A DNA stretch of 40,502 nucleotides from positions 1 to 40,502 of the forward strand of contig CAIOVX010000090.1 in the NCBI GenBank assembly GCA_903861835.1. The letters run 5' to 3'. The notes beneath the pieces were generated by a model. That model had not been told where the DNA came from. It saw nothing but the letters and a program-made list of their open reading frames with translations, and ran no database searches. This document shows, in pieces, positions 3,737 through 40,502 of the stretch; position 1 is the stretch's first letter; the number at the start of each line of letters is the position of its first letter. Origin of the DNA: Candidatus Firestoneibacteriota bacterium (GTDB taxonomy: Bacteria; Oederibacteriota; D2-FULL-39-29; CAIOVX01). The position numbers and the translations under genes were made by a program.

Positions 3737-5701
3737 TCAGCGCGCGGGAAGCAATTCAGACCCTATACCAGTCTCGCGAAGGCGCCCCTCCCGCTCCGAG
3801 AAAATATCCTGGGTCAGAATTATATCGCCCTCCATTCCGGAGACTTCCGTAATATGGGTTATCCTTCTCCTTCCATCCTTGGACCTTTCCTGGTGCACGA
3901 TAATGTCAACGGCGGAGGCGGCCTGGTCCCGGATGGCTCTAAGCGGCAGTTCCATGCCGGCCATCAGCACCATAGTCTCAATCCTGCTTAAGGTATCCCT
4001 CGGGGAGTTGCTGTGAAGGGTTGTAAGGCTTCCGGCGTGCCCGGTATTCATCGCCTGGAGCATGTCAAAGGCCTCGCCGCCGCGGCACTCGCCGACGATT
4101 ATCCTGTCGGGGCGCATCCTGAGGGCGTTCCTCACAAGGTCTCTTATGGTTACCGCACCTTTGCCCTCAATATTGGCAGGCCTTGCTTCAAGAGTCACCA
4201 CATGTCCCTGTGAAAGCGAGAGTTCGGCGGAATCTTCTATCGTTACAATCCTCTCATCACTTGGAATAAAGGAAGAAATGACATTCAGGAGCGTCGTTTT
4301 TCCGGAACCTGTTCCGCCGCTTACGACTATGTTCTTCCTTGCCCTTACCGCTTTCAAAAGACAGGCGGCCGCCTCTTCAGTAACAGAACCTGAGTTTATC
4401 AGGTCTTCTATTTTAAGTTTCCGTTTTGAAAATTTTCTTATGGTAAGACACGGACCTTTTAGCGCAAGCGGCGGAATTATCGCATTTACTCTTGAACCGT
4501 CCGGCAGGCGGGCATCCACCATGGGAGAACTCTCGTCAATCCTTCTGCCTACCGGAGCAACAATCCTTTCAATGCAGAGCAGGAGCTGGCTGTCAGAACG
4601 GAAGGATCTGCCGGAATCTTCAAGACGGCCTCTCCTTTCAACAAAAATGCTGTCTTTAGAGTTCACCATTATCTCGGATATTTCCGGATCGTTTAACAGG
4701 TCTTCCAGCGGACCAAGGCCTAAAGCTTCCTGGATAATCTCGTTCACCAGAACAGCGCGTTGCTCTTTATCTAAAATGGAGGGCGCCTCTGAAGCAAAGA
4801 GTTCCTCAACAGCTTCCCTGACCCGCGCATTCAGCTCCCCGGAATCTGAACCGTTTAGAGCTCCGGGCTCTGCGTGCTTTTCCCTAAGAAAAGGTATTAG
4901 TTTTGCGTGGATGTTAGATTTAACTTCCAGGATTTGAATTTTTCCTTTTCCCCGGGTTTCAGTTCTCAGGGGAACCGGCGCCGGTAAAAGCGAAAGGATA
5001 TGCTCTGTTAGAAAACTGACTCCCGCAGATATCCTGTTATCTCCTCTGCCGGCAAGAAGCCTGCCTGAGTTGACCGAAAGCAGTGCCTGGCTGTCGTCGC
5101 GGGCTACCAAAAAGTCAGGCGCTCTTCCGCACACAGCTTCAACGTTGAAAAGCTCCTGCGAGGAACCGCTGTGTTTATTCAGGATCAGCTTTATCCTTTC
5201 CTCTTCTAAGTGGAGAGAATAGAGCTTTTTAAAAACCAAAGGCACCTTTTTAAGGGAAGGAAGTTCCGGAGCCGCTACAAGGAAGATCCCGTTTGACTTC
5301 CGCAGTACTTCGCTAATCGGTCCGTTCAGCTCCCTTGCCACAAAAATAATGTGATCAAAGCCTTCTGCTATCTTTGAGATAAATGAAGCTGCGCTCTCAC
5401 CTTCAAAACCGGAGAGCGTAACAATTTTTAAACCGGAGGCATGCGCGGGCAGCAGCGAAATTGCGGAGTTAAGCGGGATAGAATCATTTAGCACATTTCG
5501 GACAAGGTCTTTGTCAGTATCTTCCATTCCGAGCAGCACAGAAGAATTGCAGATGTGAAAATCAGCGAGGAGAACTCTTTTTGTCCTGGCGAGAGCGGCA
5601 GAAACGTTAACGCTTAAAAGCGTGGCCCCCGAACCGCCTCTGGCGGAGACGAAGGAAGATAAGATTACACCTTTTTCCCTCAAAATACCCTTTAGGAGCA
5701 A
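3737..5701 (-). CDS. CpaE-CpaF (TadZ-TadA) fusion ATPase of the Tad/type IV secretion type
   Basis: 654 aa, two normally separate Tad-pilus proteins in one chain. Residues about 10-240 are a MinD/CpaE-type ATPase with the CpaE-like degenerate P-loop RGGSGAT at 21-27 and the following LLADFHICNSS strand. Residues about 290-650 are a CpaF/TadA secretion ATPase: Walker A GGTGSGKTT at 462-470, Asp-box around 486-490, Walker B-like RIIVGECRGGEA at 533-544 and His-box HAGSLTTLHSNSP at 555-567. CpaE positions the machine at a cell pole and CpaF powers pilus assembly; the fusion would make localisation and motor stoichiometric. No pilin, prepilin peptidase, secretin or TadB/C is in the window, so the partners are elsewhere or the protein has another role. 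The start is a TTG; a second TTG at 5683 with AAAGGG upstream is equally plausible. Confidence 0.9.
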   Translation of the reverse strand: MLLKGILREKGVILSSFVSARGGSGATLLSVNVSAALARTKRVLLADFHICNSSVLLGMEDTDKDLVRNVLNDSIPLNSAISLLPAHASGLKIVTLSGFEGESAASFISKIAEGFDHIIFVARELNGPISEVLRKSNGIFLVAAPELPSLKKVPLVFKKLYSLHLEEERIKLILNKHSGSSQELFNVEAVCGRAPDFLVARDDSQALLSVNSGRLLAGRGDNRISAGVSFLTEHILSLLPAPVPLRTETRGKGKIQILEVKSNIHAKLIPFLREKHAEPGALNGSDSGELNARVREAVEELFASEAPSILDKEQRAVLVNEIIQEALGLGPLEDLLNDPEISEIMVNSKDSIFVERRGRLEDSGRSFRSDSQLLLCIERIVAPVGRRIDESSPMVDARLPDGSRVNAIIPPLALKGPCLTIRKFSKRKLKIEDLINSGSVTEEAAACLLKAVRARKNIVVSGGTGSGKTTLLNVISSFIPSDERIVTIEDSAELSLSQGHVVTLEARPANIEGKGAVTIRDLVRNALRMRPDRIIVGECRGGEAFDMLQAMNTGHAGSLTTLHSNSPRDTLSRIETMVLMAGMELPLRAIRDQAASAVDIIVHQERSKDGRRRITHITEVSGMEGDIILTQDIFSEREGRLRETGIGSELLPAR

Positions 5702-15496: not shown

Positions 15497-16789
15497 CTAC
15501 TTCTTCTCCCACTTCAGGATATCCATCACGGAAGAAAGCGTCGAACCTTCGAGTATCTCTTTGCGCAGACGGTTCTCTTTCTCAAGCACATCCATCGCCC
15601 TGTTGGTGAACTCCACTGCCTTGTCGGCAGGAATTACCATTACGCCGTCATCATCACCCACTATCCAGTCGCCGGGGAAAACTTTCTGCCCTCCGACCAT
15701 AACGGGAACATTCAACTCTCCGAAACCTTTCGGCTCACCTGCGTGAGAGGTAACAAGGCGTGAAAAAGCAGGAAACTTTAAGTCAACTATCTCTCGTGAA
15801 TCCCTGATGGCGCCGTCAATGACGAGACCGCCCAGTTTCCGGCGTTTCGCGCTCTGCGTGGCCAGCTCGCCCCATACCGCAGGAGCAACTCCGCCGGCGT
15901 CTATAACAATAATTTCTCCGGGTTTCGCGATATCAACTGCTTCAACCGGTTTTGCCCAATCCCCGGGATAAGTTCTTACTGTTACCGCCTTTCCGGCCAT
16001 TCTCATACCGGGGGCAAGCGGTTTGATACCTGAAAGACAGGGCAGCCTGTGAAGAGCATCTGAAATATTGGCTGTTGAAACGAGAGAGAGTACCTTAAGT
16101 ATATCTTCTTCGCCCACGCGCTTGAAGAACTTGCTGTCAACTTTCTTCAAGGAAAGCATCGCTTTCTTAATCTCTGAGGCGGCCTTCTTCGCGTCTTTTG
16201 ACTTAGTTATTGAACCGCCGGCTATAATTATGGAAGCGCCGGCCTTAACCGCTTCTACAACATTCTCTGAGTTAATGCCGCCGGCTACAGCCACAGGGAT
16301 ACTGACTACCGAGACAACCTTGCGGAGCATCTCAAAAGGTTCTTTTCCCTTCATCTGCTCGTCTATCGGGGTGTGAATACCGATGTAGTTAACGCCGAGC
16401 TTTTCAACTTCTTTAGCCCTTTTAACCGGATCCTTAACCTCTATCATGTCAACAATCACTTCAGCACCATAGTTTTTGGCGGCTTCAACACATTCCGCAA
16501 TGGTAGAATCAGAAGCAGCGCCAAGGACATGCACTACTTTAGCGCCGGCCTTCGCAGCAATCTCAACTTCCGCACGCCCGGCATCCATAGTCTTCATATC
16601 AGCCACTATTACATGCTTAGGAAAGGCCTTGTGCAGCTCTCTAATGGCATTCAGGCCTTCGGCCTTTATCAGCGGAGTTCCGGCTTCTATCCAGTCAACC
16701 CCTCCTGCAACCGCTTCGCGAGCGCAGCCAAGGGCTCTGTGCATATCAACGAAATCAAGCGCAACTTGAAGTATACTCTTACGGGACAT
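15497..16789 (-). CDS. Bifunctional 3-hexulose-6-phosphate synthase / RraA-like protein
   Basis: 430 aa fusion. Residues about 1-215 are a hexulose-6-phosphate synthase of the OMP-decarboxylase suprafamily, with the DxKxxD-type catalytic motif ADMKTMDAG and the phosphate-binding AVAGGIN and IIIAGGSIT loops. Residues about 230-425 are an RraA/HMG-aldolase-type domain with GGVAPAVWGELA and GLVIDGAIRDSREI, the metal/substrate site of that fold. Such fusions are known, notably in archaea, where HPS runs in reverse to make ribulose-5-phosphate and formaldehyde; RraA-fold enzymes can be aldolases or decarboxylases. No hexulose isomerase (PHI) gene is adjacent. Both domains keep their motifs. A possible promoter sits just upstream. 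Confidence 0.9.
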   Translation of the reverse strand: MSRKSILQVALDFVDMHRALGCAREAVAGGVDWIEAGTPLIKAEGLNAIRELHKAFPKHVIVADMKTMDAGRAEVEIAAKAGAKVVHVLGAASDSTIAECVEAAKNYGAEVIVDMIEVKDPVKRAKEVEKLGVNYIGIHTPIDEQMKGKEPFEMLRKVVSVVSIPVAVAGGINSENVVEAVKAGASIIIAGGSITKSKDAKKAASEIKKAMLSLKKVDSKFFKRVGEEDILKVLSLVSTANISDALHRLPCLSGIKPLAPGMRMAGKAVTVRTYPGDWAKPVEAVDIAKPGEIIVIDAGGVAPAVWGELATQSAKRRKLGGLVIDGAIRDSREIVDLKFPAFSRLVTSHAGEPKGFGELNVPVMVGGQKVFPGDWIVGDDDGVMVIPADKAVEFTNRAMDVLEKENRLRKEILEGSTLSSVMDILKWEKK

Positions 16790-28116: not shown

Positions 28117-28827
28117 TTATTCAGCCCTGGCAAGCGTGAAAACACGCACTGAAACAGCCTTACTCCCTCCCAGAATAGCCGCGGCGCATTCATCCGCCGT
28201 AGCCCCGGTGGTAAGTATGTCGTCAACCAACAGCACTGTTGCTGAATCAAGCTTTTCCGGGTTTCTGAGAGAAAAAGCGCCGCTGACATTCTGCCTGCGC
28301 TCGTCTCTGCTCAATTCATGTTGCGGCTTGGTGTCCTTTACCCTAAAAAGCACATCGGAATAGACTGGAAGACCGAATTTCTTGCCAATATACCCGGCAA
28401 GGACTTCCGCTTGGTTGAAATCGCGGTGTTTCTTTCTGAAAATAGGAACCGGAATGAGGCAGTCTATTCCGGAAACACCGCCGAAGGCAGAAAGCGCTTC
28501 CGCCGTCATTTCCCCAAAGTATTCCCCGAGCTTCCTCTTGTCTTCGTACTTGAAAAGATGAATGGCATTGCGCATCACACCGTCATAAACTGCCGCAGAA
28601 CGGTTATCGATGAAAAGATGCTTTGACAGGCGGCATTCGCCGCATATCGCTTCCAGATCGCTTTTCATCTGCTTTCCGCAGGAGACACACGCAGGAGGCC
28701 GAATCAGCCGTATGGCGTCCCAGCATTTCCCGCAGAGGCAGGCCCTGCGCGTTAGATCCAATTTTTCACCGCACTCCCGGCAGCGCGCCGAGAAAATCAA
28801 GTCCAGCAATTCTTCAAACAACCTCAC
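28117..28827 (-). CDS. comF: ComF-family phosphoribosyltransferase-like protein
   Basis: 236 aa. N-terminal zinc-finger cysteines CRECGEKL, CLCGKCW, CVSCGK and CGECR, then a phosphoribosyltransferase domain with the PRPP motif VLLVDDILTTGAT and the preceding IPVPIF and NQAEVLA segments. ComF proteins are linked to DNA uptake (natural transformation) and to replication restart with PriA-type helicases. It follows sprA by 12 bases on the same strand, so it is probably read through from the sprA promoter, an unusual neighbour for an outer-membrane translocon. Confidence 0.92.
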   Translation of the reverse strand: MRLFEELLDLIFSARCRECGEKLDLTRRACLCGKCWDAIRLIRPPACVSCGKQMKSDLEAICGECRLSKHLFIDNRSAAVYDGVMRNAIHLFKYEDKRKLGEYFGEMTAEALSAFGGVSGIDCLIPVPIFRKKHRDFNQAEVLAGYIGKKFGLPVYSDVLFRVKDTKPQHELSRDERRQNVSGAFSLRNPEKLDSATVLLVDDILTTGATADECAAAILGGSKAVSVRVFTLARAE

Positions 28828-28839
28828 TTTTCCCCCTGT

Positions 28840-31800
28840 TTAGAACACGGCGCTAACTTTAAGGTTCACGCCGTAACCTATGTAATTATTTACACTCGCC
28901 ATATTGTCGGTAAAATAAGTCAACACAACACCCATATCGGCCTGGATGTTCTTGGAGAATTTATACTGTAAGGTGGTCCCGGCATTGTAAGAATCTGTGT
29001 TGATCTGGCTGTTGAGCGTTGAACCTGAGATCAGGTTTCGTGTCAGAGCTACATTAAGCCTGTAGTTCATTCTTAGCGCCTGGTCTATCCTGATTATTGC
29101 CCCGTTAAAGGGCCAGAAATCAGGCAGGTGAATTGGATCGCTGAAAACAAGGTTTTGATTTATCTCTATGCCCGGTGTATAACTGCGGTTCTGGTAAAGT
29201 ATGTTATTCTCCAGTCTGTCCTCTATTGAGGTCGAGAAGGTTATGGACCCGTTAAAATCATCTGAAATGCGGAACGGCGAGGTAATATTGCCTGTGTGAA
29301 GATAGTCATCAGAGATCTTCAGATTGTTTGAATCAAATCTCTGTATATTCTTAAAATCATAATCTACGTTAAGCGAGACCGGCTTCAGGAAGTCAAGCAG
29401 CGGAATCGGGGGATTTTCCATCACCAACCCCGTGCCTAACGAATAGATGCCGGTGCGCGTGAGGAACTGGCTCTGCAGGTTTCTTTCGCTTGAAAGGCTG
29501 CCTCTCGGATTAAACGAGAGCGCGCCCAGTTTTACCCTTCCGTTGATGTTGTCGGAAATAACCTGCGAGCTGTTTAAGGCCAGTTTTTCGAGCGGCAATA
29601 AGCCCCACTCGTCCATCAACTGCAGGGTTGCCAGGGGGGAACTTGCTCCGCCGGAGTACTGATCATAGAGCGCGTTGGAACCGATCCTGTGGCTTACATT
29701 CAATGAAGGCGACAATGGGGCTAGCTCTGAGAACCACTCACTCAACCTAAATTCTGAGGCTATCTCTATAACATTATTTGTCCTAAGCTGATTAACATTG
29801 AAATCTCTGTCTACCTGACCGCTGTAGTTTACCCTCGGAGTGAAACCCGGCATTCTTGTAAAAGCCGCTGATAAACCGGCTGATTTAGAAGAGGTCTGCG
29901 GCGTGAAGTCGGAAACATAGGGGTTGGATATGTTTATCGATGTGTTTGAGACATAGACATTTCCTCTCTTTTCCTGAGTACGGTACGAATACATCGGACT
30001 TAGCGGAATACCCGGCAAAATTTCATAGCCTCCGCTCCACCTGTAAAGCGTCTCACGGGTTATCGTGTAGGTATTATTCGCGGTGAGCAGGTCATGAGAG
30101 ATCTTGTTCTCGCCATAATTGAAATCAGCTGCCAGGTCATTCTTGCCGAGAGGAATTCCGAATATGTCTGCCGGCAGTGAATAAGAAGCATGCGAAGTGA
30201 GCTGGTAGGCTTTTGACTGCGTATTGTCAACATTAAGGGACTGCGCTCCGGGCAAGTATTTAGAAATATCCTCCATATAACTTCCGTTTACTGAGACGAT
30301 AAAAGGGGCAAGAAAGCTCAGCCCTACGCTTCCCGAATAGGCTTCCGTCTGCCTTTCAGGGAAAGAAAGATAATTAGGGTTATTCTTATCCGAGTCATCA
30401 GTAAGCAGTTCGTCCTTCCTGTAGGTTATATTTATAGGGATGCTCGCGAGAGGTTTTAAAGTGCCCGACGCAAGAGTTGATCTGATTGACTGTTTAACGC
30501 TTTGATTAGATTGGGCCAGAGAAATGGCCGTGTTGGTGCTCGCATTTTCAAAAAGGGTAAACCTGCTCTGCATATTTTTGTAGTCGAGTGTGACTGCCAG
30601 TGTGTCTCCGAACTTGACGCTGCCGCCGAGCCTTTCGGCTATTCCTTCGGTAGCTAAGGGGTCGGCAACCCTGAGGTTGTTAACCCATACTATGCCGCCG
30701 CCTCCCCCTGTCGGACTCAGCACACCGATGCTGATCTGCTTCACATTGTTTATGTAAAAAGTCCCGTTCCTGACAGCAGGGCTTGAGAGCGCCGCGGACA
30801 TTGTCTGCCAACCCTGCCCGGCGCTGTCCAGCTGAAAATTGTATTGATAATAATTTGTCTCATCGCTTCCCAGCCTGATAAAAACGATGTCACCCGGGAA
30901 AGCATTTACCTTGTAGATATCAAATCTCAATGTCGCGTAATCCATAAAACTGACGGCCTGGGAATAGAACTTAACGGCATAATTAGAGTAAGTAGTAGAA
31001 CCGGTGTAGGCAAGCGCCAGAGACTGTTCTCTGGTGGCATCTGCCGCCGTATTGAGCGTGTAGAAATTGCTGGTCAGCGGTATGTAGGAAGAATCCGTAT
31101 CCTTGCTTATAGTCTTAACATTAAATATAAAGGCGCTCGAGATATTCTTAAGCTGCCACTTGTTGCCTGTCAACTGCATAGATTCCACCACGACGCTTCC
31201 CGCGGGAGACGCTCCGGTTTTATTTTTAAGCCAGAGACGAACGTGTTTTATCAGGGTTTTTGAAGGCACCGAACTGCCTGTCACCTTGCCGGTCCCGGTA
31301 TCATCAAAGCTGAGCGGGATTTTTAATAGTTTCCAGGTGCCGGCGGAGTTAGTGACCGTATTTGCCACCCACGAACCAGCGTTGGCATTGTTTAGGTCGA
31401 AATTGTAATAAAAATACGATTCATTTGTGTCTAAAGAACCGTTTGCATCCATATCTTCCGTATCAAGAAGGTTATTGGAAACCCCTTCATTTATAACATT
31501 GCTCGCATACCTTATGGGTATGCCTATATCCTCGCCGTTATCCAACACGCCGTTGCGGTTCACATCTTCCGTCTCAAGCGCGCTGTTGCCGGTGCTGTCC
31601 TCCGAGGTGATCCCCAGGTCAACATTTACCGAGACAGCCTGGGACCAGTCTGCCAGCATCCAGACTTCCATGTATCTGTAGTTGCTGTAATCCGCGCCTG
31701 AAGCCGATATCGGATACCTGATACCGCCCCAAAGCCCGGAGCTGAAATCGTAATCCAGCCTGAGGAGCTGTTTAGATGCGTTGGAGGTCTCATCATGACC

Positions 31801-34143
31801 GCTTCCGTTGAAATTAGAAAGGAGCAGCCGCGACCTGTTGTTTAGGGCAGGATTCGCGCTATCGTTCTTCAAAGCCGCATCTTCAACCGGAACACTGGAA
31901 GCAAACCAGGAAGTATAAAGCGTCGGAAAGCCGGAAATATTATCGGTACCTTCCATACTGTCTATCATCGCCGGGCCTTTTTCGCCGTTCTTAGCGGTAA
32001 AGGTGTTGGGATTGAACATACTTTTTGCTATTTCACCGGAGAAACTGATATCCGTGGGCAGTATCCAGGAATCACCCAGCGCCCCGCGTATCATATCCTG
32101 AGTCAGTGTGATCTTTGAATCTATGTCGAAAACATTGAGACTGGTCGGCGTGGCTCCTATGCTTGGGACCTCCAGAGGCGACTGGCTGCCGGAGAAAAGA
32201 TAAGTGGATCCTAGCGAAAAGGAGGTGAGGTTAAGCTCCGCCCTCGCCCCGAAAATATTACTTTGGCCGGAACCGCCGAACGGAGAATACTCGTAAGTAA
32301 CTACGACTTCTTTATTGGTTATGTCGTCCAGATTAAAGAAGGAGATAAAGCCGCTGTCATAATCAATGCTGTATTGCGAGTCTCTCGAGAATCTTACCCC
32401 TCCTACGGTGATAATTTCGCTGCCTTTAACTATGTTCATATGTTTCAGCTGATAGGAGTTTATCTTGTATTTGTATTCTATGTGTATCCTGTACCTGCTG
32501 AGCGTCGTCGGGTTAGCGAAAGTAGGATAGGCGTCAGGCGGAGATACATAAGAAAAAGGACGGTCCGGATTTGCAACTATCCCGGATTGGATGCGCACCA
32601 GTCCGTTATCTACATCGATGGCGTAGCCATAGTTTGAGAGCGGCTGCTCGGCGTTGTTGTTGTCATAAATCTTAAAGACAAACTCAGCATCGTACTGCGG
32701 CAAAAGTATCTTCTTATTGCCCAAGCTATAGAAGTTCATTACCTGTTCATCGTAATATTTAGGGTCCGCCATAAGCGGTTGAATTGAGTTAATAAGATGA
32801 GGGGGAGTTCCTGCCTCGGTAAAATCAAACTGCCCGCTGATATCATAACCCGCCTTAACGCCGCCTATCGAGTAAGCGACGGCTAAAATATAGTTAGACT
32901 GCACCGACTTGTTCACCGTAATTATGCCGCTGACATAATCTATCACATAATCTATTCCGGGATGCAGGTAATCCAGCGAAAAGGTGTTGCTTGAGCTGTA
33001 CTGGGTATAGAGGGTAGGGTCAGCTCCCCGGTTCGACGGCCAACCGGGAGGGTAGTTGTTGTTCGATCCGTTCTGGTCATCCATCCAGAGCTGCACAGAA
33101 CCAGGATCAATATTCGTAACCCTAGTGGTGCCGGACATTATCTGATAGTACTTATAGCGTATGAAATTCACATCCAGGATATCCAGCTTCACCGGCGTGT
33201 AGCCTCCGGTAAACTTGTCTATGTCAGTTGTGCCTTTTGTCTGTGCTCCAATAACCTTCAGGTTAATAGGTCCGAGTTTCATCTCGGCGTCTCCACCGAA
33301 AATATTTTTATTGTAGCCGGTAAATTGCGTGTTTGGCAGAGAGAGGGTCACGTCGCCGAACTCAGCTTTCTGTATAAACTCCTCCGCCTCTCCTTTGTAA
33401 ACGAGTGAAATATCCCTCTGCTGAATTTTTGTGTCATCGTAGTCAACATTGACTATTACCCGCTTGCCTATGGTGCCGGTCAGCCTGACCTGCAGGTCCT
33501 GGGTAAGAGTGAAACCGTTGGTTATGCCGGGGGCCGCTCCCGGTATATTATTCTGCCCGGCCGGAGGGTTAGTCCTGATCACATTTCCATAATTTACCGA
33601 AACCCCTTTTCTCCCGGAAATCTCCAGTTTAGATTCCAGCGGCAGGTCAAAACCTATCTTTCCTATGCCTTCCGGTATTTGATCCCTCATTGAAACTTCG
33701 GCGTTGATATCCCTTTCCTCGCCCGGAAGCGCAACTTTCCTTTCAATATGGGGATGCAGTCGGGCGTCACGATCCAGCCTGTCCAGTTCAACATTGAAGT
33801 TTTGCCTGAGCTCACCGTCAAATAAACCTCGAAACGCCAGGGCCATGTTAGGAACAAAGACGCCGCTCATATCAGTGCCTGAGTGATCTTCTAGCGCATA
33901 GGAAATATCCTCAATCACAGGGAAACCTGAAAGCAGGGGCAAGATATTCGGTGAATTATTAAATCCGGAAAGCGCAAGGCCAGCCCCGCAATCGGGCTCA
34001 ATAAAAGGAAGCATTGAAGGGGAAAAGGCAAGTTCATCCGGAATAACGTCAAGAAAAGCGGCGCTGGAGGCGGACGCGGGAACGGCAAGGCACACTGAGA
34101 GCCAGGTCAGGAACAGCACGGCCGGTGTAGAAAACCTGTTCAA
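28840..34143 (-). CDS. sprA: SprA-like giant outer-membrane translocon protein (type IX secretion type)
   Basis: 1767 aa from a TTG start that has GAGGGAGGG upstream and lies just downstream of the predicted transcription start; an in-frame TTG 14 codons earlier would lie upstream of the transcript. Signal peptide at 1-25 (cut after ASA). Residues about 210-315 carry the SprA N-terminal pattern: LTGTIGKRVIVNVDYD, YKGEAEEFIQKAEFGDV and NIFGGDAEMKLGP. Around 711-731 lies the second SprA landmark, a FNP...GEKGPAMIDSMEGTDN segment corresponding to the family's conserved 'DDFEGT' region. The C-terminal half has alternating strands, likely a large barrel, ending in SAVF with terminal Phe. SprA in Bacteroidetes is the 36-strand T9SS channel (about 2,400 aa), so this one is shorter. 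Two PorV-like genes lie 4-5 kb to the right. Confidence 0.88.
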   Translation of the reverse strand: MNRFSTPAVLFLTWLSVCLAVPASASSAAFLDVIPDELAFSPSMLPFIEPDCGAGLALSGFNNSPNILPLLSGFPVIEDISYALEDHSGTDMSGVFVPNMALAFRGLFDGELRQNFNVELDRLDRDARLHPHIERKVALPGEERDINAEVSMRDQIPEGIGKIGFDLPLESKLEISGRKGVSVNYGNVIRTNPPAGQNNIPGAAPGITNGFTLTQDLQVRLTGTIGKRVIVNVDYDDTKIQQRDISLVYKGEAEEFIQKAEFGDVTLSLPNTQFTGYNKNIFGGDAEMKLGPINLKVIGAQTKGTTDIDKFTGGYTPVKLDILDVNFIRYKYYQIMSGTTRVTNIDPGSVQLWMDDQNGSNNNYPPGWPSNRGADPTLYTQYSSSNTFSLDYLHPGIDYVIDYVSGIITVNKSVQSNYILAVAYSIGGVKAGYDISGQFDFTEAGTPPHLINSIQPLMADPKYYDEQVMNFYSLGNKKILLPQYDAEFVFKIYDNNNAEQPLSNYGYAIDVDNGLVRIQSGIVANPDRPFSYVSPPDAYPTFANPTTLSRYRIHIEYKYKINSYQLKHMNIVKGSEIITVGGVRFSRDSQYSIDYDSGFISFFNLDDITNKEVVVTYEYSPFGGSGQSNIFGARAELNLTSFSLGSTYLFSGSQSPLEVPSIGATPTSLNVFDIDSKITLTQDMIRGALGDSWILPTDISFSGEIAKSMFNPNTFTAKNGEKGPAMIDSMEGTDNISGFPTLYTSWFASSVPVEDAALKNDSANPALNNRSRLLLSNFNGSGHDETSNASKQLLRLDYDFSSGLWGGIRYPISASGADYSNYRYMEVWMLADWSQAVSVNVDLGITSEDSTGNSALETEDVNRNGVLDNGEDIGIPIRYASNVINEGVSNNLLDTEDMDANGSLDTNESYFYYNFDLNNANAGSWVANTVTNSAGTWKLLKIPLSFDDTGTGKVTGSSVPSKTLIKHVRLWLKNKTGASPAGSVVVESMQLTGNKWQLKNISSAFIFNVKTISKDTDSSYIPLTSNFYTLNTAADATREQSLALAYTGSTTYSNYAVKFYSQAVSFMDYATLRFDIYKVNAFPGDIVFIRLGSDETNYYQYNFQLDSAGQGWQTMSAALSSPAVRNGTFYINNVKQISIGVLSPTGGGGGIVWVNNLRVADPLATEGIAERLGGSVKFGDTLAVTLDYKNMQSRFTLFENASTNTAISLAQSNQSVKQSIRSTLASGTLKPLASIPINITYRKDELLTDDSDKNNPNYLSFPERQTEAYSGSVGLSFLAPFIVSVNGSYMEDISKYLPGAQSLNVDNTQSKAYQLTSHASYSLPADIFGIPLGKNDLAADFNYGENKISHDLLTANNTYTITRETLYRWSGGYEILPGIPLSPMYSYRTQEKRGNVYVSNTSINISNPYVSDFTPQTSSKSAGLSAAFTRMPGFTPRVNYSGQVDRDFNVNQLRTNNVIEIASEFRLSEWFSELAPLSPSLNVSHRIGSNALYDQYSGGASSPLATLQLMDEWGLLPLEKLALNSSQVISDNINGRVKLGALSFNPRGSLSSERNLQSQFLTRTGIYSLGTGLVMENPPIPLLDFLKPVSLNVDYDFKNIQRFDSNNLKISDDYLHTGNITSPFRISDDFNGSITFSTSIEDRLENNILYQNRSYTPGIEINQNLVFSDPIHLPDFWPFNGAIIRIDQALRMNYRLNVALTRNLISGSTLNSQINTDSYNAGTTLQYKFSKNIQADMGVVLTYFTDNMASVNNYIGYGVNLKVSAVF

Positions 34144-34175
34144 TGGACCCTCCCTCTCAACTCGTGCAGTAAGAG

Positions 34176-34204
34176 ATTTTAGCAAATTACCCCTGTGTTT
34201 TCAA
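34176..34204 (-). promoter_or_regulatory. Promoter of sprA-comF
   Basis: Minus-strand TTGAAA (complement of 34199-34204), 17-base spacer ending in TGC, and TAAAAT (complement of 34176-34181); predicted start near 34169 leaves a 26-nt leader with a GAGGGAGGG site. Its location decides that translation starts at 34143. Confidence 0.65.
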
Positions 34205-34241
34205 TGACCGCGTTAGGAGTTGGGGGCTCTTAATTATGGCT

Positions 34242-34271
34242 TTTGAACGTCTTTTGGGGTATAATTTCAAA
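34242..34271 (+). promoter_or_regulatory. Promoter predicting a leaderless lptF transcript
   Basis: TATAAT at 34260-34265 is followed by six bases and ATG at 34272, predicting transcription from the start codon. TTTTGAAC ends 11 bases before the -10 box, the same arrangement as at 12800. The promoter is divergent to the sprA promoter in a 128-base gap. Confidence 0.55.
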
Positions 34272-35387
34272 ATGAAGATCATCAACAGGTACATAGTCAA
34301 GGAGATAAGCGCCCCTCTCCTTCTCGGGTTCCTGGTCTTCACGCTTATCTTCCTGATTGACAAAACGAGGGAACTTTCAGAACTAATAGTCCGCTACGGA
34401 GTTGGCTTTCTGCCGGCTGTTCAGCTCTTTGCCTATGTGCTTCCCGCTTACATAGCTATTACCGTCCCGATGGGCCTCCTTTTCGCGGTGCTTTTCGCAT
34501 TTTCGCGCTTTAACTCGGACAATGAAATTACGGCCATGAAAACGAACGGCGTGCACGTAAACAGCATTGCGGCGCCGGTGCTGGTTTTTGGACTCTGCGT
34601 CTCCCTTGTTATGGTTCTTTTTAACGCAACGCTTTTACCCAGGAGCAACCTGGCTTTCAAACAGCTGTATTTCAATATCGTAGAGAAAAGGGCCAATGTA
34701 GCAGTCCAGGAAAAGGTATTTATTAATGATTTCAACGGTTTTATATTCTATGTTGATAAGAAAGACGAGAAAACCGGAGTGCTTCGCAATATCCTTGTTC
34801 ATGTTCTTGAAAAGAACAACTCCCCCGTATATACCATCACTGCCCCTGAGGGAATGCTCGCTTCGGATAAGGGGCAGAAACGCCTTATCCTGAAACTTAA
34901 GAACGGAAGCATTCACCAGGCGCTCGGGCCGGGCTTAAGCGGTTACAATCTTATCAAATTCGACTCTTACGACCTTGACCTGGACATTAACAGCGCCTTG
35001 TCTGGCGTTTCGAATATGAAAGGCTTCAGGGAAATGACCTTTTCCGAATTGTCCGAGGAGATCACCAAGTTCAGGGAAAGCGGCATAAGGGATGTAACAC
35101 CTCAAATAGAGTACCACAAAAAGATTTCAATCCCTTTCGCCTGTCTGGCGCTTACGCTTACCGGAATAGCTCTCGGAATATCAGTCAGGATTAAGGGCAT
35201 GTCCTGGAGCATTTCTATGAGCCTGGCGCTTATTGTACTCTATTACTATTTCCTGATAACGGGTGACGCGCTTGCGCAGAAAGGGACTCTTTCTCCCGTC
35301 CTCGGAATGTGGCTGCCAAATATTGTAATAGGAACGGTCGGGGCGGTGCTGTTGCTTTTGGCAATGAGGGAAAAAGTCAAATTCTAG
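34272..35387 (+). CDS. LptF/LptG-type lipopolysaccharide export permease (first of two)
   Basis: 371 aa YjgP/YjgQ family protein. Start set at ATG 34272 (MKIINRYIVKEISAPLLLGF), six bases after a -10 box; an upstream in-frame ATG lacks support. Membrane helices at about 12-33, 53-80 and 95-118, a periplasmic jellyroll (about 130-265) and three C-terminal helices at about 280-300, 305-325 and 335-360. Conserved pieces include VPMGLLFAVLFAFSRF, SDNEITAMKTNG and YHKKISIPFACLAL. LptF and LptG with LptB2 pull LPS from the inner membrane toward LptC/A/D. Adjacent to a second homolog; I cannot say which is F and which is G. Confidence 0.92.
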   Translation: MKIINRYIVKEISAPLLLGFLVFTLIFLIDKTRELSELIVRYGVGFLPAVQLFAYVLPAYIAITVPMGLLFAVLFAFSRFNSDNEITAMKTNGVHVNSIAAPVLVFGLCVSLVMVLFNATLLPRSNLAFKQLYFNIVEKRANVAVQEKVFINDFNGFIFYVDKKDEKTGVLRNILVHVLEKNNSPVYTITAPEGMLASDKGQKRLILKLKNGSIHQALGPGLSGYNLIKFDSYDLDLDINSALSGVSNMKGFREMTFSELSEEITKFRESGIRDVTPQIEYHKKISIPFACLALTLTGIALGISVRIKGMSWSISMSLALIVLYYYFLITGDALAQKGTLSPVLGMWLPNIVIGTVGAVLLLLAMREKVKF

Positions 35388-35446
35388 CTAATTAATAATT
35401 AGACTTATTTCGGAAATAGATTATCCGGATTAAAACACAAGGGGAT

Positions 35447-36544
35447 ATGAGAGAACCCAGGACAGTTTACTTCTACATAACCAAAGAATTCTTCAAGGCC
35501 TTCGCCGCATCTGTTGCGGCTATTACAATAATAATGCTGGCCAACGAGTTCTTTGAAGTAATCCACGAGATGCTGGTTTACCGCGCGTCCCTTTCCTCAA
35601 TATTTAATTATTTCGCTTACAGGGCAGCGTTGACCTCCCTTAAAATATCGCCTATTGCTACGCTCCTCAGCGTTCTTTTCACTTTAAACAACATGGCTAA
35701 GCACAACGAAATAACCGCTATGAAGACCAGCGGCATGAACCTGGCAAGAATAGCCGCCCCAATTCTTTTATCCTCGCTTCTAATAAGTTTCGCGGTAATC
35801 ATAATCCACGAATCTTTCGCGGCAGAACTGTACTATAAATCGAAAATGCTGAAACACAATCAGATATTGAAAACCGGTTTTGACGACAGGGTCTCAGCCG
35901 CCGATAACGTGGCTTTCAGTTCAGGAGCCGGGATTACCGCGTATGCCAGACATTTTGACTCTGACAAAGGAGTGCTGGAGAACGTTTTCCTCCTTTACTG
36001 CAAATCAAACGGGTCTGTTTTCAGGCGCATCGACTCGCCGCTGGGGCGCTGGGACGGGAAAGAATGGAAGTTCTATGACTGCAGTATAAGGGATTTTTCC
36101 GGACCTCTCCAGGTAGAAACTCTAAAGAAGACAGCTGTTCTCTCAATCGCTCTGCGGGAGCGGCCGGAAGATCTGGTAAAGAGCAAGAAACTCTTTGAAG
36201 AGTTCACCCTTGCCGAAATGAGAAAATACATTGATAATCTTAAAAAATCCGGCGGAATATTCAAACAGCAGGAAATGAATTACCAGTTTAAGATTTCCCT
36301 GGCGTTCGCGAATGTGATACTGGCGCTGATTGGAATACCCTTTGGCCTTGGAGCCGGGAAGTACAGCGGGATTATTTTCAGTTTTGTGGTAAGCCTGATA
36401 TTCGCGCTCATCTATAACAATCTGCTCTTTATAGGCCAGTCTCTCGGCTCAAACAACCTCTTAAATCCTTTCTTTGCGGCCTGGTTTGGGAATATTCTCT
36501 TCCTGATATTCGGCGCCGCCATGCTCTACAGGGTGAGAAAGTAG
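35447..36544 (+). CDS. LptF/LptG-type lipopolysaccharide export permease (second of two)
   Basis: 365 aa, same architecture as the preceding gene: three N-terminal helices, beta-rich periplasmic domain (about 130-250) and three C-terminal helices. The cytosolic coupling segment NNMAKHNEITAMKTSGMNLARI and MNYQFKISLAFANVILALIGIPFGL match the family. An AAGGGGAT ribosome site precedes ATG. It is 59 bases after the first copy and the two should form the LptFG heterodimer. Convergent to the DUF2341 gene, 80 bases away; the gap shows no clear terminator. Confidence 0.92.
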   Translation: MREPRTVYFYITKEFFKAFAASVAAITIIMLANEFFEVIHEMLVYRASLSSIFNYFAYRAALTSLKISPIATLLSVLFTLNNMAKHNEITAMKTSGMNLARIAAPILLSSLLISFAVIIIHESFAAELYYKSKMLKHNQILKTGFDDRVSAADNVAFSSGAGITAYARHFDSDKGVLENVFLLYCKSNGSVFRRIDSPLGRWDGKEWKFYDCSIRDFSGPLQVETLKKTAVLSIALRERPEDLVKSKKLFEEFTLAEMRKYIDNLKKSGGIFKQQEMNYQFKISLAFANVILALIGIPFGLGAGKYSGIIFSFVVSLIFALIYNNLLFIGQSLGSNNLLNPFFAAWFGNILFLIFGAAMLYRVRK

Positions 36545-36624
36545 CGTTAATCTTACTTTGAAAACACCTTAAACTTTTCTATCGTGCAGTGCTTTCCTTC
36601 TACCGCTAATTTTGGAGTTTCATT

Positions 36625-38223
36625 CTATTTAATCAGAGTCACCGTGCCGGTTTTCACAGTAGCGCCGCCCACGCTTAGTTGATACAGATAGATACCGCCC
36701 TTAGCCAGCGTGCCGGAGCCGTCAGTTCCGTCCCAGGAAGTGCCGGTCCCTGCGCCCTTTATTTCCCTGAAAAACCTGCCGCCCGAATCAAAGAGCCGTA
36801 ATTTCACTTCAGCGTTGCCCTGATTAACCACGGCGAAAGTAACAGCACTAAACCTGCCGTCCAAGGAAGCCGGAGTGAATATTTTTGCGGAAATTGCCGC
36901 CTGGCTTGACTCTATAAGAACAGCCGAGGCTGAACTCACAGTCATATCTGCGGCAACACTTGCCTGTATGGAGGCCGGGAAGAAACAGTACCCGGATTTT
37001 GAAAAGGAAACAGTGTACAAGCCGGCCGGACCGGAAGGTATCCAGAACTCGTAATTACCACCCACCTGGGAAATATAACTTTGTGTTGTTAGATCGCTAT
37101 TTTTGGTTAGCGTTACGGCAACCCCGTCCACTCCGTTTATGCCGGAGTAAATCTTGCCGGTCATATGGTACAGTGAATAGGATGATGCCACTGTCGTTCC
37201 CGTGGTGCTGGCGTCATAGTCATACTGTTTGGCAAGATATATCCATTCATACTGCTGGTGCGCCGTAGTGCTGGTAAAGAAGGAAGTCCAGTTCCAGCTT
37301 ACTGTATTCCAGGCTGCCTGTGTAACTGTTTGCGAGCTTGTCCCTGTCCCGTCATCAGCCGTTAGCGCGAGACTATAAACCGTCGGAGATTTTTTGGTAA
37401 CGGACATTCTGTTCCAGGTATTTGAAGATGCGGTCATAAGCGTAACTGCCGTACCTACTGCGACTCCTGCTTTCACATAGGACTTGAAAATGTTTGTAGA
37501 AGAAGTTGCGCTTGTGCTGTCTACAATGCCAAACCTGTCCGTGTCAGGAGTTGTAGAAGTGCTTATCATAAAAGGAGCATTGGTCGAATTAGCAGTGGCA
37601 AGAGTTCTCGCGCCTATCCGAAACGCATTGATCGTTGAAGCCAGCGTAGTATTCATCGCAAAGGTGCTTGTTCCGGCGGCCACGCCGAGCGCATCAATTA
37701 TTGAAACTCCGGTTGTTAGGGTCGGCGAGATGGTATAACCGGTGGACTTAGTCCACTTGGTCTGATCGACAACAGAAGAAGTGAAATCATCAAAAAAATC
37801 AAAAACACCGTTGCCGTTGCCGGAGGTAACTGTCTGGGAGGAATCGCCATAATCTATTTTGACTATTGTGGAAAGACCGGGCGCAAGCGGAGACGGCAGT
37901 CTAAACCAGATAACTGCCTTTGATTTATTAGAGGTAGACGGAGAGCTCCCGGTATTGTTGAATAACTCGATCCAGTAGGGTACGGGATTTCCGTTATTAT
38001 CTCGCACTCTTATATCTCCGCCGTCAGACCTAACTGTACTCCAAAAAACACTTTCGGCGGCGGTAGAAACACCCGTGCCGGTATTAGTTAGGTCTACTTT
38101 GCTTTCCGTAATAGTCACGCTGCTCGCGGTGGTGTTTACTATAGACACATCCATCCGATGACCAGCCGCTACGGCGGTAAGAGCCAACGACAGCGCGGCC
38201 GCTAATATTATAAGTTTTTTCAT
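36625..38223 (-). CDS. Secreted DUF2341 protein with carboxypeptidase-like and FlgD-type Ig C-terminal domains
   Basis: 532 aa with a signal peptide (1-19). A DUF2341-type beta domain comes first (SDGGDIRVRDNNGNPVPYWIE ... IWFRLPSPL ... IDYGDSS pattern, about 65-140), then a concanavalin-like stretch (about 145-345), a carboxypeptidase-regulatory-like beta fold (about 350-420, GKIYSGINGVDGVAVTL ... GNYEFWIPSG) and a C-terminal FlgD-type Ig domain (about 445-532) ending GGIYLYQLSVGG...KTGTVTLIK. DUF2341 domains often bind carbohydrates or sit in surface enzymes; no catalytic site is visible, so adhesion or binding is the likely role. The tail resembles T9SS-type cargo C-terminal domains. Downstream of two PorV-like genes in the same operon. 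Confidence 0.75.
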   Translation of the reverse strand: MKKLIILAAALSLALTAVAAGHRMDVSIVNTTASSVTITESKVDLTNTGTGVSTAAESVFWSTVRSDGGDIRVRDNNGNPVPYWIELFNNTGSSPSTSNKSKAVIWFRLPSPLAPGLSTIVKIDYGDSSQTVTSGNGNGVFDFFDDFTSSVVDQTKWTKSTGYTISPTLTTGVSIIDALGVAAGTSTFAMNTTLASTINAFRIGARTLATANSTNAPFMISTSTTPDTDRFGIVDSTSATSSTNIFKSYVKAGVAVGTAVTLMTASSNTWNRMSVTKKSPTVYSLALTADDGTGTSSQTVTQAAWNTVSWNWTSFFTSTTAHQQYEWIYLAKQYDYDASTTGTTVASSYSLYHMTGKIYSGINGVDGVAVTLTKNSDLTTQSYISQVGGNYEFWIPSGPAGLYTVSFSKSGYCFFPASIQASVAADMTVSSASAVLIESSQAAISAKIFTPASLDGRFSAVTFAVVNQGNAEVKLRLFDSGGRFFREIKGAGTGTSWDGTDGSGTLAKGGIYLYQLSVGGATVKTGTVTLIK

Positions 38224-38224
38224 A

Positions 38225-39187
38225 TTATTTCAGACCTCCCTCAGGATTAAGCTTGTCGTCCTTTAGGTTGTAAAGTTCCGTAAAGGTAAGAGTGAATTTG
38301 TGGGTTCCCGCGGTACCGTCGGCAAACGCAGTCGGAAGCATGAATCCGTAATCAAAAGAACAGCCCGCGCCAACCAGCGGTATATTGAATTTTAACCCTG
38401 TGCCCGCGCAGATATTAAAGTAGCTGCCGTCGCCGAAACCTGCTCCGAGCCTGAAACTCATTAGTCCAAGGTCGCCTGCCTTAAAGCCGTTTATTTCTCC
38501 GCCCACCTGGAACTTAGTCAGATTTGCCCTGGATATTATTTCTATGGCCACTAACGTGTCTTTTTGGCGGTAAGAAACCCCTCCTTTAAGGGTGACCGGC
38601 AGTCTCTCTTCCGTGGAAAGCCCTATATCCGGAGAATTGAAATCATCCATGAAGAACCCGACAGTAAAGTCGTTAAAGAATCTAGAACAGAAAGAAACTC
38701 CAAAAGAGAAAACGTTTTTTGAGAGCGAACTAAAATAGGGATTAATATTGGTCCAATCGTTAGCGGCAAAAGCATTTGACAGATACTTAACATTTACGCC
38801 AAAAGAAGAATTTAGCGCGGAATAAGCGTAGGCCAGTTGATAAACCGTCTCAGAATATACGGTGTCTCCGAAAGTGTACCAACTAAATCCGAGTGAACCG
38901 TAATTCTTCATTGGATAAACGACTCCCAGGTAATTCTCCCCGATATCATCCCCGGTGCCGATCACCAGTTTATTGTAACTTAGCTGTACTTCCCAGGATT
39001 TCATATTGCCAATCCCTGACGGGTTTGCAAAAAGCGCGGAAGAATCGTCCGCGACGGCAACAAAAACATTTCCCATACCGACGGACCTTGCGGAGTAATC
39101 CAGCTGGTTGAAAGCCCCGAAAGCAGGTCCGGACAGAAGAAGAATAAAAAAGAGCACTCCGGTAATATATTTTATATTATTTCGCAT
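38225..39187 (-). CDS. PorV/PorQ-family (UPF0164) outer-membrane protein, copy 2
   Basis: 320 aa, signal peptide (about 1-24) then the family hallmark DYSARSVGMGNVFVAVADDSSALFANPSG, followed by alternating beta strands expected of a 14-stranded barrel. The start is the ATG at 39187, preceded by GAGGG at five bases; it overlaps the end of the preceding paralog by 11 bases. In T9SS, PorV binds the C-terminal domains of cargo leaving SprA and carries them to the sortase. The two copies share only the general pattern, so each may serve different partners. Confidence 0.88.
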   Translation of the reverse strand: MRNNIKYITGVLFFILLLSGPAFGAFNQLDYSARSVGMGNVFVAVADDSSALFANPSGIGNMKSWEVQLSYNKLVIGTGDDIGENYLGVVYPMKNYGSLGFSWYTFGDTVYSETVYQLAYAYSALNSSFGVNVKYLSNAFAANDWTNINPYFSSLSKNVFSFGVSFCSRFFNDFTVGFFMDDFNSPDIGLSTEERLPVTLKGGVSYRQKDTLVAIEIISRANLTKFQVGGEINGFKAGDLGLMSFRLGAGFGDGSYFNICAGTGLKFNIPLVGAGCSFDYGFMLPTAFADGTAGTHKFTLTFTELYNLKDDKLNPEGGLK

Positions 39188-40121
39188 CTTCACCCTCTTT
39201 TCCCGGCTTCTTTGGCAGTTCTCTGAAGGTCAGGGTTATAATATGAGACCCGGCGGAACCGTCAATAAAACCAAGTTGATAACTGAAGCCGTAATCAATG
39301 TCTATGCTTACTCCGGACCCCGGCAGAGTGTAATCGTACCCGATACCGGCGTTAACCCTTGAGTAGGAATCCGAACCAATCCCTCCGCCAAGCCGCATAC
39401 AGAAGTTGGATTTATTTATGTTATACTCACCGCCGGCGCTGGCAACCCAGGAGTTACCAAAGACCGAGTAATCGGCTTCGGCTACCAGCCCTGCCATTAC
39501 CTTAACAGCCGCCCCTCCGGTTATCCTCATAGCCACCGGATCTGAGGCAGTCCCAAAGTTTATGTCAGGCTGGTTTATATTTTGCAAGGACAAACCAAAA
39601 CTGGCACCGCCAACCCGATAGATGGCTCCGGCGTCAAAACTTAAAGCGGAAACGCTGTGTTTTGCGGCTAAGAGAGGATTAGCGTCGATACTATCTCCGT
39701 TTCCCAACTCTTTCACGAGATTTTTTGCGGAAAGGCCGAAAGTCAGATACTCCTTATTGCCCATGGAATACTTGTAGCCGGCAGTAAACGCATAAGTCTT
39801 CTCGCTATAGATAGCAAGTCCAAAGCCGGTGTAGTAGACGCCAACCGAGACATTTTCATCTATAGGAAGAGCCATAGCCAAATAACCGTTTGAAAGTTCC
39901 TCGCCGACACCGACATAGGGTTTGCTGTAGGAGAAAGAAACGCTCTTCTTGTTAATGAAGGCCGTGCCGGCAGGATTTATATACATCGCCGAGACATCAT
40001 CCGCCATCGCCGTAAAAGCATCCCCGAAGCCGACAGCACGGCCCGAATAATCGTAGTACTCAAAGGCCGCCTGCGCAGACACCGCGAAGAAGAATAATAG
40101 CGCGAAAAATAGCTTTTTCAT
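39177..40121 (-). CDS. PorV/PorQ-family (UPF0164) outer-membrane protein, copy 1
   Basis: 314 aa. Signal peptide at 1-18 (cut after AQA), then YDYSGRAVGFGDAFTAMADDVSAMYINPAG, the family hallmark, and barrel strands ending ITLTFRELPK with a charged tail. Start set at the ATG at 40121, eight bases after AAGGAG; two upstream codons belong to no ribosome site. It lies 17 bases after the partial FlgD-domain gene and is translationally linked to the second copy. Function as for copy 2: probable SprA partner or cargo shuttle, by family. Confidence 0.88.
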   Translation of the reverse strand: MKKLFFALLFFFAVSAQAAFEYYDYSGRAVGFGDAFTAMADDVSAMYINPAGTAFINKKSVSFSYSKPYVGVGEELSNGYLAMALPIDENVSVGVYYTGFGLAIYSEKTYAFTAGYKYSMGNKEYLTFGLSAKNLVKELGNGDSIDANPLLAAKHSVSALSFDAGAIYRVGGASFGLSLQNINQPDINFGTASDPVAMRITGGAAVKVMAGLVAEADYSVFGNSWVASAGGEYNINKSNFCMRLGGGIGSDSYSRVNAGIGYDYTLPGSGVSIDIDYGFSYQLGFIDGSAGSHIITLTFRELPKKPGKEGEDAK

Positions 40122-40137
40122 TAACACCGCTCCTTAA

Positions 40138-40502
40138 TTATCTGGCAACCGCAAAAGTGCCTTTGCCCGCCTGCGTGCCGCCAACCTTTACCTCGTAGAT
40201 ATAGAGCCCGGTCTCAGCGTACTTGCCGCTGTAATCTTTGCCGTCCCAGATGACCTGTGTTGAACCGCCGTCATTAATGGTCCGCAGCAGCACGCCGTTA
40301 ACATCCCACACCTTAAAGACCACAGAGTTCCCGCCGGAATTAGGGAAAGAAACAGTAAGCCGATTGAAGAGCGGATTCGAGCTCAGCGGCGTAAAGGGAT
40401 TCGGCTGCGCCTTTACCACCAAAGAGTTTGGCGAAGCCGCTACAATAGCATACTTTGAGAAATGAGTGACCCTTGCCGAAACATTTATCACGTTGCCCGC
40501 GG
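40138..40502 (-). CDS. C-terminal part of a secreted protein with FlgD-type Ig domain (cut by window edge)
   Basis: The frame is open through the right edge (121 codons visible plus stop). The part seen begins AGNVINVSARVTHFSKYAIVA, a linker strand often found just before such C-terminal domains, then an Ig-like fold with VVFKVWDVNGVLLRTI, VIWDGKDYSGKYAETGLYIYEVKVGG and the final GKGTFAVAR. The same WDG-x-D-x-SG ... G-x-YxYxVxVGG ... G pattern closes the DUF2341 protein at 36625. Probable surface protein exported with the help of the neighbouring PorV-like and SprA-like proteins; full length unknown. Confidence 0.8.
   Translation of the reverse strand, partial: AGNVINVSARVTHFSKYAIVAASPNSLVVKAQPNPFTPLSSNPLFNRLTVSFPNSGGNSVVFKVWDVNGVLLRTINDGGSTQVIWDGKDYSGKYAETGLYIYEVKVGGTQAGKGTFAVAR

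Follow-up and report, generated by a model that had tools for sequence, protein, structure and literature searches.

A probable type IX-like exporter with a single SprA channel and many cargo-paired PorV-family barrels in a Firestonebacteria lineage

Results

The window analyzed here is one whole contig (C90) of 40,502 nt from a draft genome of 2.18 Mb that is 98% complete. Read in the direction of transcription, its minus strand carries the end of a gene for a secreted protein, two barrel genes (a and b), and the gene for a second secreted protein; these are followed along the window by a divergent pair of LPS-export permease genes (34236-36544, plus strand), sprA, and a comF-like gene (Table 1). 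A preliminary description of this DNA had placed sprA, both PorV-like barrels, and the C-terminal domains (CTDs) of both secreted proteins within 12 kb, and the coordinates agree, with candidate cargo 1 truncated where the contig stops. In the nearest relative (locus L076), the counterpart of cargo 1 is an open frame of 809 aa. The direct neighbor of sprA is the lptF/lptG pair, not the barrels.

Table 1. Features between the comF-like gene and the end of the contig
Feature	Position	Strand	Evidence
ComF-like phosphoribosyltransferase gene, conserved downstream neighbor of sprA	28117..28827	-	Named from sequence, without profile search
SprA/Sov-type outer-membrane translocon, at most 1781 aa, start codon uncertain	28840..34185	-	TIGR04189; family profile vs 6h3i_A; colinearity with P. 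distasonis SprA
LptF-type LPS-export permease, divergent neighbor of sprA	34236..35387	+	PF03739 290 bits, TIGR04407 225 bits
LptG-type LPS-export permease	35447..36544	+	PF03739 232 bits, TIGR04408 173 bits
Candidate cargo 2: signal peptide, DUF2341, prealbumin-like domain, CTD	36625..38223	-	PF10102 64.6 bits, PF13620 17.7 bits, hydrophobic N-terminus
CTD (candidate export tag) of cargo 2	36628..36903	-	76.2 bits with local CTD alignment A2; FlgD_ig 15 bits
PorV-family barrel b, candidate shuttle	38225..39193	-	NF033709 PorV_fam 59.6 bits, E 3.7e-16; UPF0164: no match
PorV/PorP-family barrel a, candidate shuttle; overlaps start of barrel b	39177..40127	-	PorV_fam 66.5 bits; PorP_SprF 60.4 bits; AF2 model
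Candidate cargo 1, 3' end, cut by contig end	40138..40502	-	Open frame running to contig end
CTD (candidate export tag) of cargo 1	40141..40416	-	FlgD_ig 27.4 bits (cut-off 27); 85.9 bits with A2; AF2 model

We compared the surroundings of sprA across loci with enough flanking sequence. Of 51 loci, 37 had the lptG-lptF pair divergently adjoining sprA (33 of 47 when Firestonebacteria are left out); comF directly followed sprA on the same strand in 42 of 58 (38 of 54 when they are left out). The order lptG-lptF / sprA-comF-(gapdh) is common to Firestonebacteria, FCPU426, and Elusimicrobiota (window 28117-36544; loci L076-L155), whereas the cargo-PorV-PorV-cargo block was found beside this neighborhood in the present genus only. 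The compact export island of the preliminary description is therefore better seen as an ancient lptG-lptF / sprA-comF-gapdh neighborhood with a genus-level insertion of the cargo-PorV-PorV-cargo block. The lptFG neighbors also suggested SprA as a replacement for LptD. We rejected this for the genus: the LptD domain (PF04453) had no match in the window SprA, and three sister genomes (G001-G003) carry separate LptD-like open reading frames of about 750 aa. In most other members of the group, LptD was not found by the Pfam profile, which may simply miss it there.

The sprA reading frame extends over 1781 aa from a TTG start; the start is uncertain, because 1767 aa, the length given in the preliminary description, is also the full length of the open frame in the closest relatives. 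The encoded protein matched TIGR04189, the equivalog-level NCBIfam model of SprA, in five stretches with an E-value of 1e-57 and 195.4 bits, missing the cut-off of 200 bits by 4.6 bits; the profile match on which the earlier SprA assignment had been made to depend was thus found. A family profile of 17 relatives retrieved the solved Flavobacterium johnsoniae SprA (6h3i_A) at 1.9e-45, and its remaining matches were fibronectin-type repeats aligned to the N-terminal part of longer relatives. A PDB search with the single sequence gave no match, and Pfam models gave no SprA assignment, only a sub-threshold match to DUF4097. In a joint alignment of the window protein with 14 others, it was colinear with Parabacteroides distasonis SprA (2472 aa) from the signal peptide to the last residue, at 17% identity. 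It is 28% shorter than that protein, in keeping with the earlier estimate of about a quarter, and the trimming is spread over many segments, the largest being 1527-1609 (82 vs 291 residues) and 862-901 (39 vs 129 residues). The same length is found in Elusimicrobiota SprA (1740-1785 aa), and the nearest relatives, from Candidatus Firestonebacteria, are 82-84% identical. By profile and alignment, we assign the protein to SprA.

Of the 59 genomes searched, 47 had SprA matches, which in G048 and G058 were very weak. In a tree of 54 SprA rows, those of Firestonebacteria, Goldbacteria, FCPU426, and Elusimicrobiota formed one supported group of 46, including a few unplaced or oddly labeled bins, apart from Parabacteroides and the other phyla; inside it, the taxonomic groups held together. 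Together with the conserved gene order, this grouping points to inheritance of SprA from a common ancestor of the four lineages rather than recent transfer, the direction of inheritance being inferred since the tree was rooted at its midpoint.

By sequence, both barrels belong to the PorV/PorP family. Barrel a scored well above the cut-off of Pfam PorP_SprF (22.3 bits), and both barrels scored below the cut-off of PorV_fam (NF033709; Table 1). Of the earlier label UPF0164/PorV-like, the PorV part holds; the UPF0164 part does not, barrel a reaching only 19.5 bits, below the cut-off, and barrel b none. A family profile built from 34 members reached an E-value of 1.9e-36 for the PorV in the solved SprA complex and of 1.3e-9 for TodX, the best FadL-family protein. 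The AF2 model of barrel a (pLDDT 83.6) had a TM-score of 0.74 to PorV (8gl6_F; 5.1 Å) and of 0.57-0.66 to FadL-type transporters; Foldseek ranked FadL above PorV by E-value, but not by TM-score. PorV_fam matches above the cut-off occurred in all 44 genomes of the group (6-43 members per genome), and all SprA-bearing genomes searched carried PorV-family genes. In the window genome, the genome-wide PorV search that the preliminary description had proposed gave 11 family matches. The PorV and candidate cargo proteins inspected had a hydrophobic, signal-like N-terminal stretch (start unclear in L187). In some loci, PorV-family barrels were fused to other domains, namely OmpA, FlgD_ig plus OmpA, TPR repeats, or CarboxypepD_reg (L193:1960-4092, L194:2616-4523, L195:2824-5226, L196:9320-11299, L090:10941-12869, and L180:3597-5147); the FlgD_ig-OmpA fusions combine a shuttle and a tag-like domain within one protein.

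Both secreted proteins end in 95 residues of one family, 32% identical between the two, in agreement with the earlier report of a shared C-terminal FlgD-type domain (Table 1). Among FlgD and Por proteins, a profile of this family placed flagellar FlgD highest (9e-12), then the CTDs of PorU (7e-9) and PorZ (3.5e-8); two substrate CTDs from structures in which they are trapped on the type IX translocon matched weakly (9e-4 and 1e-3). The AF2 model of the cargo 1 CTD (pLDDT 95.3) has seven strands; its best PDB match was PorZ (5m11; TM-score 0.70), equaled by PorU, and FlgD reached 0.46-0.58. Type A CTDs have likewise been described as Ig-like sandwiches of seven strands (PMC12618676). The domain thus lies between FlgD_ig and the PorU/PorZ CTDs; "FlgD-type" is the label of the first profile to match, and in view of the family profile and predicted fold, "type IX CTD-like" is the better description. 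Against the type B model TIGR04131 (cut-off 35 bits), cargo 1 scored 16 bits, which does not place it in that class, and cargo 2 had no NCBIfam match and thus none to TIGR04131.

The CTD count proposed in the preliminary description, which had taken this domain for the export signal, gave 16 matches in the window genome, 14 of them strong, and up to 98 per genome in relatives. Together with the large PorV family, this large CTD family runs counter to the second outcome that the description had said would refute its reading. The domain stands at the extreme C-terminus of secreted proteins, which agrees with a role as a tag. Judged by hydrophobicity, the N-termini of the candidate cargo inspected resemble Sec signals, and their other domains are of surface or secreted types (NHL propeller, two M6 peptidases, sortilin/BNR, TIG, and DUF2341). 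In FCPU426 and in family f12, sprA is directly followed by the gene for a protein of some 1500 aa that carries a type IX-like CTD (L042:2578-7089, L043:13370-17896, and L045:12976-17397); the body of this protein matches only fn3, and it is a candidate system-specific surface component. The possibility that this protein, which in FCPU426 lies between sprA and comF, is PorU or PorZ was rejected, as only its CTD matches.

In the window genome, five CTD genes (on contigs C3, C9, C11, and C49, and in the window) have a PorV gene immediately downstream in the same orientation. By chance, 0.009 such pairs would be expected, and none of 20000 random-placement simulations reached five. The same order recurs in several relatives, for example in three pairs within one 20-kb stretch (L196) and in one pair in L194. 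A porP/sprF-like gene commonly follows the gene for a type B cargo in F. johnsoniae (PMC12618676).

Across phyla, the SprA, PorV, and CTD families occur or are missing as a set. In 14 genomes from other phyla, 14-97 CTD and 6-18 PorV matches were found where a full SprA is present (five genomes), against 0-2 and 0-3 in the remaining nine. Four genomes of the same group lacked a SprA match yet held 41-43 CTDs; these absences are probably mostly gaps, because three of the four are incomplete and the other (G021), although 99% complete, is in 160 contigs. G021 has 43 CTD and 28 PorV matches, and two genomes of its genus have SprA. Some of the Elusimicrobiaceae sampled keep SprA with 1-6 PorV and 0-4 CTD matches, which leaves room for another role of SprA there; one Elusimicrobium genome (L152/G074) has SprA, four PorV-family matches, and no CTD match.

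We searched for the sortase and for motor and ring proteins. The PorU model NF033707 found full PorU in four genomes of other phyla (E-values 1e-173 to 1e-233; 575-776 bits). PorU was not found in the 45 genomes of the group, where nothing exceeded 66 bits, matches had E-values of 1e-18 or weaker, and almost all of the matches listed covered only the CTD end of the profile; the best match in the window genome had an E-value of 4.9e-8. The preliminary description had seen no sortase in the window, and this now extends to these 45 genomes. In 59 genomes searched at E 0.01, the motor model GldM (PorM; TIGR03517) and the ring model GldN (PorN; TIGR03523) had no match, and the motor model GldL (PorL; TIGR03513) had three weak sub-cut-off matches only. 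These profiles gave no convincing match even in the PorU-positive genomes G045, G047, G051, and G053, which are expected to have a working system; their reach outside Bacteroidota is therefore doubtful, and, with no positive control for the three profiles, the silence of those of GldM and GldN in every genome does not prove absence. The suggestion of a stripped-down version fits PorU, the motor and ring proteins being undetected, and fails for the shuttle side: with 11 PorV-family matches here and 6-43 in relatives, the system is expanded on that side and not poor in parts.

Discussion

We consider it probable, with good confidence, that the window genome encodes the outer-membrane half of a type IX-like exporter, in which one channel serves many gene-paired carrier barrels and cargo is probably held non-covalently. 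By analogy with the solved Bacteroidota translocon (PMC10994853), on which the entry of cargo, the binding of its CTD by PorV, and lateral exit are modeled, cargo would cross the inner membrane via Sec and enter the single SprA barrel from the periplasm. Its C-terminal Ig-like domain would be bound by a PorV/PorP-family barrel docked at the lateral opening of SprA, and the pair would then leave sideways into the outer membrane. One SprA would serve many barrels, several of them encoded directly after their cargo. Given that the searches found no PorU, the tag probably stays uncleaved and the cargo is probably anchored non-covalently by the barrel itself, as has been proposed of PorP-like proteins for type B cargo (PMC9143113).

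Several observations count against this explanation: the GldL, GldM, and GldN profiles brought up no convincing motor or ring protein; SprA falls 4.6 bits under its equivalog cut-off and both barrels fall under that of PorV_fam; the CTD profile scores FlgD slightly above PorU and PorZ, and Foldseek places FadL above PorV by E-value; and some Elusimicrobiaceae keep SprA with few or no CTD proteins. Alternatively, the system could be a complete type IX system whose PorK, PorL, PorM, and PorN are too diverged for Bacteroidota profiles, so that only its host and the missing sortase would set it apart. This is a realistic possibility, to which we would give somewhat less than even weight. The failure of the same profiles in PorU-positive genomes speaks for it, as does the mere 17% identity of SprA to its P. 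distasonis counterpart, but the SprA and PorV profiles still reach their targets at such distances, and of the three Gld profiles only that of GldL returned anything from the 59 genomes, all of it sub-threshold.

The Elusimicrobiaceae and the divergent lptF/lptG genes, kept beside sprA at most loci outside Firestonebacteria, would also suit a core outer-membrane task of SprA tied to LPS export, its link to CTD cargo being secondary or absent. However, the LptD-like barrels in three other genomes of the genus indicate that SprA is no replacement there, and the co-occurrence of the three families across phyla, with PorV-family genes in every SprA-bearing genome searched, argues for a tie to cargo; we judge such a task unlikely as the main explanation. 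As for the two search rankings, one could take the barrels for FadL-like transporters and the CTDs for FlgD-like structural modules, with the adjacency to sprA accidental; that the barrels adjoin the sprA neighborhood only in this genus would fit. But in the search with the PorV family profile, the E-value of PorV is better than that of TodX by 27 orders of magnitude, the predicted CTD fold is closer to PorZ and PorU than to FlgD, secreted proteins carry the domain at their very C-terminal end, and cargo-barrel pairs recur on five contigs of the window genome, which together make an accident very unlikely.

In F. johnsoniae, substrate loading needs no motor and precedes an energy-requiring release, whereas release from the translocon does need the motor (PMC10994853); a motor-less system would therefore need another driving step. 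Tentatively, and as something we think on balance doubtful, Elusimicrobiota, Goldbacteria, FCPU426, and Firestonebacteria might represent an ancient type IX branch without PorLM, PorKN, and PorU, in which cargo is pulled from SprA by capture on a large set of cargo-paired PorV proteins, powered by folding or binding, or else by another motor. On that view, an exporter of simpler build, with one channel and many shuttles, would have come first and been elaborated later into the Bacteroidota machine.

Compared with the type IX systems of Porphyromonas gingivalis and F. johnsoniae, the group shares a homologous SprA/Sov, PorV-family carriers, and Sec-exported cargo with an Ig-like CTD of about 95 residues. 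It differs in that PorU was not found and GldL, GldM, and GldN were undetected, in the shorter SprA and the 6-43 PorV-family genes per genome, and in that sprA adjoins lptFG and comF, whereas P. distasonis sprA adjoins ruvA. It resembles the type B CTD / PorP-SprF pairs of F. johnsoniae (PMC12618676, PMC9143113) in having a shuttle gene directly downstream of the cargo gene and a barrel (a) above the Pfam PorP_SprF cut-off; however, the CTD resembles FlgD_ig and the Ig domain of PorU/PorZ (type A-like) rather than type B, and the match of the barrels to the PorV profile is just as good. CTD-tagged enzymes outside Bacteroidota are also known from the proposed type IX-like secretion of Fibrobacter succinogenes (PMC6851124), but the superphylum said to hold all type IX systems (PMC12421860) includes Fibrobacter and not the Firestonebacteria lineage. 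FlgD is the flagellar hook-cap protein. Its Ig-like domain (PF13860) was the profile that first recognized both CTDs; here, unrelated secreted proteins end in the domain, which takes up their final 95 residues and in predicted fold is nearer to PorZ and PorU.

The core parts are thus members of type IX families that, by analogy, would work like a type IX system, and the presence of SprA, PorV, and CTD families bears out the type IX-like route outside Bacteroidota that the preliminary description had proposed. We do not class the whole as a full type IX system, because PorU was not found in the group and GldL, GldM, and GldN went undetected without a positive control. A type IX system in the Firestonebacteria/Goldbacteria/FCPU426/Elusimicrobiota clade is unreported in the open-licence literature, where mentions of type IX in papers on Goldbacteria/Elusimicrobia and Omnitrophota are reference-list entries only; individual genes may already carry names from public annotation pipelines. 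Should the system work here, the origin of type IX would be much older or wider than stated, and a likely surface-protein route would be named for several poorly known phyla. It would also be a natural test of which parts are needed, with channel, shuttle, and tag kept, the sortase gone, and the motor in question. The many cargo-barrel pairs offer natural material for learning how a shuttle recognizes its tag.

Two further reading frames in the window, both read by eye only, appear to be fusions: one of 654 aa (3737-5701) reads as an ATPase of the CpaE type joined to a secretion ATPase of the CpaF type (Tad pilus), and one of 430 aa (15497-16789) as a hexulose-6-phosphate synthase fused to an RraA-like domain.
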